In this document: positions 2,227-4,351 of the stretch, one piece after another
Layout of the letters: every line of letters starts with the position of its first letter
Numbering within the stretch: the stretch's first letter is position 1
DNA from: a virus
Virus record (IMG/VR): IMGVR_UViG_3300028571_000113
Span: 1-24,279 of that record
Direction: 5' to 3' (one strand)
Length of the DNA stretch: 24,279 nucleotides
Notes under the pieces: generated by a model
Seen by the model: only the letters and a program-made list of their open reading frames with translations
Databases searched by the model: none
Told to the model about the DNA's origin: nothing
Made by a program: the position numbers and the translations under genes

Positions 2227-3171
2227 TTAAAATGGTAAATCATTATTCATTTCGTTTATTTTTTTTTCTAAGTTGCTTAACATTAATTCGGGTTTCTTTG
2301 AAGGAAATTGATTTGGTTTTCCTGTTTGACATTTTTGTAGTGGATTAATTCCGCCAATTTCAAATCCTAATCCGCCGTTAAAATTACATAAAATTGGTTC
2401 GTTTAATGCCGTATGTTTTCCGCCCGTGTCCATATCTTTTATTTTTTCTACGTTAATCATTGTAAAATACTTCATTGTATCGTGCTTAATTAATCTATGA
2501 ATTACAAACATATCATCGCATCTATTTGTAAACGCTTTACCACCCTCGATATGGTCTTTTAATGGTGGTTTAAGGTGTCCTTTCCATTCGTGACCATCAG
2601 CGTATAAATTTGCGCTTCGTCCACTTTCTGAATTCGGGTGTGTATTTATGTAAATTGTTATTCCTGTTTCATTTACAAATTGTCTCGCTTCATTTAAAAA
2701 TTCGTAATTTCCTGAATAACTCATTTCACGGTCTAATCCGGTGAACGGATCAATTAACGCTGCGCTGCATCCACTATCCTTGAATATTTTTAATAATTCT
2801 TTTGGCTTGTAAAGTTGATTGTTTGAAATAAATTCAAAATACTGCTCTAAATACGTCAACGTACTTAATATTTTTTTATCGTCTATTTCGCTGAATTTTT
2901 GCCCTACGTACATTTGAATCATGTCGCGTAAAATTTGCCCTTTTTGATTTTCACCACTCCAAATACAAAACTTTAAATCGTGCTTTACTGCGAGCGTTAA
3001 AAAATACCAATTAATAAAATACGTTTTTCCAACATTATCGTGTCCTAAAATTATATTTAGTTGTTTTGGTTTAAATCTTAAATACTCATCCAACGGACAA
3101 TCAATTCCTAATCCTTTTTTTATTTTTCCGTGTTTGTAATCGAGTAAATATTTTGTTACGTCGCCTTTCAT
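2227..3171 (-). CDS. RecA/DnaB-fold ATPase, probable replicative helicase
   Basis: A 314-aa P-loop ATPase. Walker A is GHDNVGKT at 43-50, and the Walker B strand is ALID at 138-141 (D141), followed by PFTGLD. A sensor-like NTHP lies at 176-179, and an Arg-containing loop follows (SESGRS, 181-186). This order resembles DnaB/RadA/RecA-like hexameric helicases; many phages carry such a short version with no N-terminal primase. The residues around 60-80 (FCIWSGEN) match the strand in DnaB-type proteins where a Glu activates water (E74). It begins inside the stop codon of the DUF6291 gene (ATGA), consistent with an initiator-helicase pair. A packaging or recombination ATPase is less likely given the neighbours. 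Confidence 0.83.
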   Translation of the reverse strand: MKGDVTKYLLDYKHGKIKKGLGIDCPLDEYLRFKPKQLNIILGHDNVGKTYFINWYFLTLAVKHDLKFCIWSGENQKGQILRDMIQMYVGQKFSEIDDKKILSTLTYLEQYFEFISNNQLYKPKELLKIFKDSGCSAALIDPFTGLDREMSYSGNYEFLNEARQFVNETGITIYINTHPNSESGRSANLYADGHEWKGHLKPPLKDHIEGGKAFTNRCDDMFVIHRLIKHDTMKYFTMINVEKIKDMDTGGKHTALNEPILCNFNGGLGFEIGGINPLQKCQTGKPNQFPSKKPELMLSNLEKKINEMNNDLPF

Positions 3172-3755
3172 AATGCAAGTTGTTTATTAACGTATGCAAC
3201 TAAAGGATCAATTTGAGTTTTGGAATATTGATCCGGGTTTCTGGAATGCCACGTTCGCAACCTTTGATTAATTCCAAAAGTTTTTTCTTTTTCAAACCTC
3301 ATCTTTTTATCGTTGATTCCGTGTTCACTCCAATAGTTAAAAAAGTCTCTTACCATTTCTTTTGGAAATTCAGATAAATAATTAGAAAGCAAATCGTAAA
3401 ACTTGTTTTTACGTTCTTCTATACTATCTCTTACTCTTACACTATCACTTACACTATCACTATCGGCATTTTTGGTATCCGTTTGCATACTTTCGTATGC
3501 GGTCGCATTCCATCGCTTCAAAGCGTTTTCTTTATTCTTCATTCGTATGTTTTCGTACTTTACTAAATCACGTTTCAAACTTTGTTTAATAGGTGCGAAT
3601 GCAATTTTAATCAATACATCTTCAGTAATTGGATTTTTATCATTTACATATCTTAAAATATGTTTAAATAATTTACCCGCTTGTTCATCAGATAATTCTT
3701 CTACCGTGTGAATTATATCGTTGTACAATATAAATCCGTTTTTTTCTTTTGCCAT
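3168..3755 (-). CDS. DUF6291-type replication initiator-like protein
   Basis: A 195-aa protein. Residues 1-90 match the DUF6291 pattern seen in Bacteroidetes phages (FILYNDIIHTVEELSDEQAGKLFKHI, then NALKRWNA). A low-complexity linker at 98-114 (DSDSVSDSVRVRDSIEE) separates this from a C-terminal segment (about 118-190) containing FFNYWSEHG and NQRLRTWHSR, which resembles the end of DnaD/O-like replication proteins. The linker is encoded by near-perfect DNA repeats, as in phage initiators whose origin lies inside the gene. The order initiator, helicase, with ATGA coupling, supports a role in loading the helicase. The ATG sits 18 nt after the U-tract of a strong terminator, so expression probably needs read-through or a start between the terminator and the gene. 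Confidence 0.78.
   Translation of the reverse strand: MAKEKNGFILYNDIIHTVEELSDEQAGKLFKHILRYVNDKNPITEDVLIKIAFAPIKQSLKRDLVKYENIRMKNKENALKRWNATAYESMQTDTKNADSDSVSDSVRVRDSIEERKNKFYDLLSNYLSEFPKEMVRDFFNYWSEHGINDKKMRFEKEKTFGINQRLRTWHSRNPDQYSKTQIDPLVAYVNKQLAL
3420..3464 (-). repeat. Short tandem repeats inside the initiator gene (iteron-like)
   Basis: On the minus strand this segment contains GATAGTGATAGTGTAA, then GTGATAGTGTAA, then GAGTAAGAGATAGT. These are several near-identical copies of GATAGT and GTGTAA spaced about 12 nt. It encodes the Asp-Ser-Val-rich linker of the DUF6291 protein. In lambda, the origin iterons sit within gene O at the linker between DNA-binding and helicase-loading parts. 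The same layout here is suggestive, but the repeats are short and could simply reflect a low-complexity linker. Confidence 0.5.
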
Positions 3756-3772: not shown

Positions 3773-3826
3773 AAAAAAAGCCTTCTAAAATCCTGCGCAT
3801 CTCACTTCGCATTCATTTAAAAGGCT
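3773..3826 (-). terminator. Strong intrinsic terminator ahead of the replication genes
   Basis: On the minus strand, AGCCTTTTAAA (3826-3816) pairs over 11 bp (one G-U) with TTTAGAAGGCT (3789-3779). An internal loop and a 4-bp TGCG/CGCA stem (3811-3808 with 3797-3794) follow, closed by the 10-nt loop AAGTGAGATG. Seven U residues follow directly (3779-3773). It lies after the early operon and 18 nt before the ATG at 3755. Its apical loop is complementary to a loop upstream (see 3841-3864). Confidence 0.85.
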
Positions 3827-3840
3827 CATAACTTCTTATT

Positions 3841-3864
3841 GGTTATATAGTGTGAGATGTAACC
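3841..3864 (-). ncRNA. Upstream hairpin whose loop complements the terminator loop
   Basis: On the minus strand, GGTTA (3864-3860) pairs with TAACC (3845-3841) and closes a 14-nt loop that starts with CATCTCAC (3859-3852). That 8-mer is the exact reverse complement of GTGAGATG (3805-3798) in the terminator's apical loop. The two hairpins are 14 nt apart, so a kissing-loop contact is possible. An alternative pairing, ATAAC (3846-3842) with GTTAT (3832-3828), would compete with this hairpin. This suggests a switchable RNA, but no ligand or factor can be named. Confidence 0.5.
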
Positions 3865-3934
3865 GTTCGCAATATTACATATAATTATTATTCTTTTCAC
3901 TTAGTTAAACTATACTTATTAACATTTAATTGTT

Positions 3935-3952: not shown

Positions 3953-4351
3953 TTAAGATATATAAGAATTAATAAAGTCCATCGGCTGCTGCTCGTATTC
4001 GTTGTTTTTAATCCGTTTTACTATATCCATTAAGTCGGTTGTGTTACGTGCGTTTAAAACCTCTGTAAATATGTCTCGCCGTATTTCTACCAACGGCGAA
4101 AATAGTTCGAGTTCTTTCTGAATGTGCATTTTATAAACGCTATCATTCGTTTTAATAAAGTGTTTATCCGATCGAATAGCGTGTATAATTGTCGCGTGTG
4201 TTAAATTAAATATATCAGCAATTCTTTGCAACGTTATTCCCTCTTTGTGTAATAAACCAGCTAAAAACATTCTTCTGTAAACATATTCACGGTGGCGATT
4301 TTTTCTATTTAATCCGTTTTCTTCTACGTATTTAATAATTGTTTCTACCAT
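3953..4351 (-). CDS. DnaA-domain-IV-like helix-turn-helix protein
   Basis: A 132-aa protein. Residues 22-61 contain YVYRRMFLAGLLHKEGITLQRIADIF followed by NLTHATIIHAIR. This is the layout of the DnaA C-terminal DNA-binding domain, in which an HTH (about 38-60) ends in a motif of the form DHSTVxHA that contacts the DnaA box. Here it reads THATIIHA. The rest (62-132) is helical and has no ATPase domain, so it is not a full DnaA. It is the last gene of the early operon, before the attenuator and replication genes, so binding the phage origin or a promoter are both reasonable. Its start lies within the tail of the 31-aa membrane protein gene. Confidence 0.7.
   Translation of the reverse strand: MVETIIKYVEENGLNRKNRHREYVYRRMFLAGLLHKEGITLQRIADIFNLTHATIIHAIRSDKHFIKTNDSVYKMHIQKELELFSPLVEIRRDIFTEVLNARNTTDLMDIVKRIKNNEYEQQPMDFINSYIS

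Follow-up and report, generated by a model that had tools for sequence, protein, structure and literature searches.

The minus strand of the viral DNA analysed here (IMG/VR record IMGVR_UViG_3300028571_000113, positions 1 to 24,279; this whole stretch of 24,279 nucleotides is called the window) carries, ahead of a gene of replication type, an RNA element in which the loop of a 5' hairpin, P1, is complementary to the loop of the intrinsic terminator hairpin, P2, that follows it. Comparison with related elements suggests that viruses of Bacteroidota harbour a family of phage RNA switches not described before, and we consider it probable, on comparative grounds, that the element acts as a self-contained promoter and leader attenuator which is not specific to replication genes.

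In the window, sequence and folding place P1 at 3841..3864 on the minus strand, with a stem made of GGTTA (3864-3860) and TAACC (3845-3841) and a 14-nt loop, CATCTCACACTATA, which contains the candidate kissing segment k (CATCTCAC, 3852..3859, minus strand). After a spacer of 13 to 14 nt on the same strand, P2 and its U-run occupy 3773..3827, the folded hairpin extending from 3827 to 3778 and the U-run reaching 3773, so that a stable hairpin is directly followed by a U-run, as defines an intrinsic terminator. In particular, folding resolves the minus-strand P2 into a 12-bp outer stem (3827-3816 with 3789-3778), an internal loop of UGAA (3815-3812) facing GGAU (3793-3790) in the region 3790..3815, a 4-bp inner stem flanked by this internal loop, and a 10-nt apical loop, AAGTGAGATG (3807-3798), which holds the second candidate kissing segment, k' (GTGAGATG, 3798..3805). 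Folding and alignment together identify the internal loop as a conserved purine loop of the tandem GA type, and k and k' were assigned from covariation in relatives. The two segments form a perfect 8-nt complement, and each of the two 8-mers occurs at a single site in the window. The preliminary description had reported two minus-strand hairpins with perfectly complementary 8-base loops and a strong terminator before a replication gene, and both observations were confirmed: P2 by itself folds with -18.3 kcal/mol (z, -4.3; 0 of 200 shuffles as good), and the ATG of the replication-type gene stands at 3755, 17 nt beyond the end of the U-run. P1 by itself is weak (-1.4 kcal/mol; z, -0.6), and it could not be accepted on the strength of the window sequence alone. 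Since a signal seen in a single sequence could be due to chance, the case rests on the relatives of the element.

The gene directly downstream (3168..3755, minus strand) encodes a 195-aa DUF6291 protein of the phage replication/primosomal type (PF19808, E value of 6.7e-25; weak match to the primosomal protein family phrog_6451) and is followed by a gene for a primase/helicase-like ATPase (2227..3171, minus strand; phrog_18375, E value of 3e-21). Upstream and co-directional lies a gene for a 132-aa protein resembling the C-terminal (HTH) domain of DnaA (3953..4351, minus strand; PF08299, E value of 7.7e-6, below the curated cut-off). All predicted phage genes between positions 305 and 24219 of the window lie on the minus strand, in the order terminase piece, structural genes, endolysin-like gene, small open reading frames (ORFs), DnaA-like gene, RNA element, DUF6291 gene, helicase-like gene, NinG and ERF. 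We could also notice that the DUF6291 proteins of the window (3168-3755) and its relatives are mosaic, a conserved N-terminal part of about 80 aa being followed by one of several C-terminal halves that are unrelated to each other.

We sampled viral contigs that encode relatives of the 195-aa DUF6291 protein, together with isolates, and an automatic rule accepting a terminator that ends at most 30 nt from the start codon yielded 35 non-redundant leaders. A perfect complement between the terminator loop and an upstream segment was present over at least 6 nt in 35/35, at least 7 nt in 29/35 and at least 8 nt in 15/35, counts which include three leaders (L034, L039 and L040) where the segment picked is probably a chance one and the real complement likely lies elsewhere in the leader. 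The complementary segment is located 14 to 34 nt before the terminator in nearly all of the 35 leaders, and the chance of a complement of at least 7 nt amounts to 4.9% for mismatched loop/leader pairs taken from other loci and 3.1% for shuffles. As a control within the same contigs, the complement was detected in 19 of 20 elements versus none of 10 other terminator-like hairpins. The loop pairs are highly diverse among relatives, as exemplified by CCTTCGAC/GTCGAAGG, CTCACGAC/GTCGTGAG, CATCCGAC/GTCGGATG and GGTAGGAG/CTCCTACC. Furthermore, several remote relatives have two hairpins whose stems enclose precisely the fully complementary loops of 6 to 8 nt and nothing more, as in L103, where the loops GTGCAG (closed by GTC and GAC) and CTGCAC (closed by GGG and CCC) are complementary over their entire length, and in L033 and L051, where the whole-loop complement is exact at 7/7 and 8/8 positions, respectively; the arrangement predicted from this exact closure is textbook kissing geometry.

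As a safeguard against bias toward DUF6291, we searched viral contigs for a DNA pattern describing the P2 interior, regardless of the downstream gene. The scan returned 82 stretches, and in 78 of the 80 examined k and k' match over at least 6 nt, the two exceptions being L234, which is cut by the contig end, and L213, which is a natural mismatch. In the latter (L213:786-900), k is GGTCTGAC and k' is GTGAGAGC, and P1 appears to have been acquired from another element by recombination.

The alignment of 46 non-redundant close relatives, window included, gave 95.2% of cells paired for the full named structure versus 76.1% after shuffling, with changes on both sides at 23 of 28 pairs, and a slide of one column lowered the paired fraction to 48%. 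For the kissing helix taken separately, 95.4% of cells were paired, versus 72.7 ± 1.5% when shuffled and 25 to 44% when slid; double changes numbered 80 cells against 23.7 ± 3.5 in shuffles, fell at 6 of the 8 pairs and included almost no G-U. The P1 stem was paired in 92.7% of cells, with both-side changes at all four outer pairs, the outer and inner stems of P2 covaried as well (96.8% and 98.9% paired, respectively), and four positions of the U-run were invariant in the 46 sequences. The preliminary description had called for a covariance search in relatives and had named a lack of conservation or covariation of the two loops as grounds against its proposal; the loops proved to be conserved, as seen in the 35 leaders, and covarying. 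Two complementary hairpin loops with covariation support are what characterizes a kissing-loop RNA. As regards highly conserved nucleotides of the kind that bind the ligand of a riboswitch, the close relatives conserve only the internal loop (UGAA/GGAU) and a small number of loop positions, and other subfamilies have a different internal loop, AGUA/GAA. This replacement was observed in the terminators of L103, L128, L149 and L275 (Olleya phage Harreka_1) and corresponds to the bulged-G (sarcin-ricin) consensus.

These data bear on the simplest alternative, namely, a plain terminator whose loop complement is an incidental inverted repeat in the DNA, such as a protein-binding site or an origin element. 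It is true that, in the DNA, k and k' constitute an inverted repeat and that replication genes lie nearby; however, k differs between phages with nearly identical DUF6291 proteins (L174 versus L188) and changes before unrelated genes, the P1 and P2 stems covary with G-U pairs, that is, at the RNA level, the complement is missing from the other terminator-like hairpins of the control, and entire hairpin loops of 6 to 8 nt are exactly complementary in some relatives. This explanation is therefore already strongly disfavoured, and we regard it as extremely improbable.

P1, the outer and inner stems of P2 and the kissing helix covary at once. It follows that all helices can coexist and that the selected state is the terminator and the kissing contact together; on the covariation evidence, kissing is compatible with the terminator rather than an exclusive antiterminator. 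When 26 sequences were truncated short of the complete 3' arm of P2, RNAalifold returned only the k:k' pairing, and no conserved alternative (antiterminator) fold was found in those 26 cut sequences. The competing pairing of ATAAC with GTTAT, proposed in the preliminary description as a means of opening the first hairpin, is present in the window and is not conserved, with 63.0% of cells paired versus 61.6% in shuffles. Thus, the mutually exclusive terminator and antiterminator folds of a classical attenuator were not found.

With regard to the start of the transcript, nearly all relatives show a Bacteroidota -7 box, TATATTTG, just 5' of P1, and the window contains a putative -7 box at 3870..3877 on the minus strand (TAATATTG), which agrees with 5 of the 6 fixed positions of TAnnTTTG. 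In Flavobacterium psychrophilum, the -7 box is located at -12 to -5 (PMC9723704), a spacing that would put the +1 of the window at about 3866-3864, in the first bases of P1. A -33 TTG box gave no signal in relatives, and none is evident in the window. The stop codon of the co-directional upstream gene lies a median of 8 nt before the -7 box in relatives, and that of the 132-aa DnaA-like gene lies 75 nt before it in the window. On the other side of the element, the first downstream genes of the contigs found by the pattern belong to 14 unrelated families, including small ORFs and HNH genes, and the distance from U-run to ATG has a median of 19 nt across these 14 families, most values falling between 11 and 25 nt. 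Since this gap is too short to accommodate a separate promoter, the gene would have to be reached by read-through. A promoter, a leader terminator and a gene without room for another promoter are thus arranged as in an attenuator, with an imperfect -7 box in the case of the window.

A covariance model built from the element and searched in the window and 54 records detected one copy in the window, with no second copy there, and gave hits in 52 of the 54 records, each with one or two copies. The cultured Cellulophaga phages phi19:3 and phi13:2 have two copies each, Flavobacterium phage tooticki6-1 carries the element, and Olleya phage Harreka_1 scored weakly (E value of 0.007), with a matching loop pair visible. 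The two copies of phi19:3 stand before the DUF6291 gene and at the head of an operon led by a YopX-like gene, respectively; where a DUF6291 gene has no adjacent element, one is often found a few genes upstream. Host chromosomes of one family gave a single match in 397 genomes, which argues that the element is not a host RNA. No Rfam 15 covariance model matched the window or 20 relatives at gathering score, the only matches being at chance level. We also noted that L178 (IMGVR_UViG_3300042503_000036), likewise 24,279 nt long, is a different sequence from the window, to which it is about 74% identical over some 600 bp only, and that it has its own element with k CCTCTCAC.

The occurrence of the element at transcript starts recalls the put RNAs of phage HK022, short two-hairpin RNAs with which early transcripts begin and of which each genome has two (PMC9378689), and raises the alternative that RNA polymerase, once bound by the nascent two-hairpin complex, would become resistant to terminators for the operon. 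The put RNAs are about 70 nt long, with two stem-loops and one copy per early operon (PMC9378689), and the element likewise stands at the transcript start and heads two operons in phi19:3. However, put RNAs antiterminate and have neither a terminator nor kissing loops, whereas the element has a strictly conserved terminator stem and U-run, present in 46/46 close relatives, and its loop sequence is largely unconstrained; we judge such a role very improbable.

As for the claim of the preliminary description that an RNA device decides whether early transcription reaches the replication genes, the attenuator role is the best reading of these data. Its restriction to replication genes did not hold, given the 14 families of first genes and the YopX-led operon of phi19:3, and the position of the -7 box immediately 5' of P1 in relatives indicates that the element would not only relay upstream "early" transcription. 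It is possible to hypothesize that RNA polymerase starts at the leader promoter or arrives from upstream, that P1 is made first, at the 5' end of the transcript, and then P2, and that kissing of the loops closes the two hairpins into one complex with the terminator formed. Termination at the U-run would be expected for the majority of transcripts, and those reading through would express the downstream early/replication genes, so that the leader would set (attenuate), and probably condition, downstream expression. Our inference is that only part of the transcripts terminate, in a regulated manner, and that kissing tunes this termination; we favour a contact that would stabilize the terminator apex as the apex emerges, relief possibly coming from capture of the P1 loop by a protein, a ribosome or another RNA. 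Attenuation is favoured by the covariation, the U-run, the spacing, the -7 box, the independence from gene identity and the two operon heads in phi19:3 and phi13:2. Against it we count the weakness of the window P1 alone, the imperfect -7 box, the missing -33 box in relatives, the lack of a conserved mutually exclusive antiterminator, unlike classical attenuators, and kissing loops that change faster than a purely structural role in cis needs.

In a subset of leaders (L071:1413-1534, L083, L084, L040, L118, L129 and L146), just 5' of the DUF6291 start, k directly precedes an ATG that opens a short ORF of about 10 to 35 codons running through the terminator. A second copy of k lies before the gene ATG in L129, L084, L040, L101, L102, L103 and L143, and likewise in L118, where a duplicate of the start region, ATCTGAACAATG, stands at the real gene start. 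The k segments 5' of the short-ORF ATG, and the second copies in L118, L129, L103 and L143, would suit a control of leader translation, in which the loop complement would cover or expose the ribosome start site of the leader ORF or of the gene. Nevertheless, the window and its close relatives have neither an ORF starting at k nor a second copy of k, and we hold this explanation to be very improbable.

The turnover of the loops deserves separate consideration. Among the closest relatives, k/k' show 0.165 differences per site versus 0.006 to 0.009 in the stems, as calculated from 11 pairs that are not independent. L174 and L215 have three differences outside the loops, yet their loops are different and still matched, and the comparison of L174 with L215 and L186 shows compensated loop changes with 3 to 8 differences outside. 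Non-cognate loops pair poorly (-4.6 versus -10.9 kcal/mol for cognate ones), and the two-element genomes examined have a different k in each copy. The rapid turnover of matched loops suggests either diversifying selection for a private identity, comparable to plasmid incompatibility, or template switching at quasi-palindromes, and the difference between the two copies is allowed by both views. On this basis, the terminated RNA of about 90 nt could itself be the product, a small RNA closed by the kissing of its 5' hairpin with its 3' terminator hairpin that would act in trans, for example upon the nascent leaders of further genome copies as a sensor of copy number or superinfection, with a private specificity conferred by the loops. 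Both ends of a small RNA gene, promoter box and terminator, are present, and the fast, compensated divergence of k/k' relative to the stem pairs, the distinct k of the two copies and the poor non-cognate pairing are all in its favour. On the other hand, neither k nor k' is enriched at other places in the phage sequences analysed (k', 7 observed versus 11 expected; k, 9 versus 6), so that no separate targets are visible, the tight ATG spacing over the 14 gene families favours use in cis, drift would also give a different k in two-copy genomes, and template switching could couple the loop changes without selection. We consider a trans-acting product possible but unlikely. Equally doubtful, if not slightly more so, is the idea of a self-contained device in which P1 holds the terminator loop of its own transcript and the hyperdiverse loop pairs are private "addresses" by which the terminated leaders of sibling genomes or rival phages would be told apart, allowing copy number or superinfection to be sensed by RNA.

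The components of the proposed attenuator, namely, leader attenuation, kissing loops and intrinsic terminators, are known. In the ColE1 RNAI/RNAII pair, kissing is intermolecular, between RNAs from opposite strands whose complementarity is automatic, and controls the primer. The element resembles it in having complementary kissing loops of about 6 to 8 nt whose identity varies while the architecture is constant, but RNAI/RNAII involve no terminator loop and control a primer rather than a leader. In the repY/repZ leader of ColIb-P9, which contains a leader ORF, a loop pairs with a distant segment before the replication initiator gene, forming a pseudoknot that acts on translation; pairing of a loop with a distant leader segment is shared with the element, and the leader-ORF subset may be compared with it, whereas the action on translation and a pseudoknot partner other than a terminator loop are not shared. 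Purine-type riboswitches combine kissing L2/L3 loops with a conserved ligand pocket and a separate, mutually exclusive terminator hairpin. Like the element, they are 5' leaders that join a terminator to an intramolecular loop-loop contact; in the element, however, no conserved junction or pocket is apparent, and the terminator itself kisses. In pT181-type attenuators, an intrinsic terminator lies just ahead of the replication gene and a 5' hairpin loop kisses (PMC4878617). Terminator attenuation before a replication gene and a kissing 5' hairpin loop occur in both, but in pT181 the kissing takes place between antisense and leader and sequesters the antiterminator, whereas the two loops of the element belong to a single RNA, the terminator itself supplies one of them, and no conserved antiterminator was found. 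A literature search covering mainly the main texts of open-access papers found no description of such an element. What is new, to our knowledge, is that one transferable phage leader unites the loop of a terminator with that of a 5' hairpin and that these loops match while being hypervariable.

The element thus defines an RNA family absent from Rfam and represented in phages of Bacteroidota by scores of viral contigs together with at least four cultured isolates, with an unusual layout, in which the terminator hairpin is itself the kissing partner, and very strong covariation. Its roughly 20 to 30 matched loop pairs are a natural library from which orthogonal transcription switches could be drawn, and the phage-host pairs that already exist allow a direct test of an old question, namely, whether terminator efficiency is set in nature by loop-loop contacts. 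For the poorly understood phages of Bacteroidota, it provides a handle on the timing of early and replication genes.
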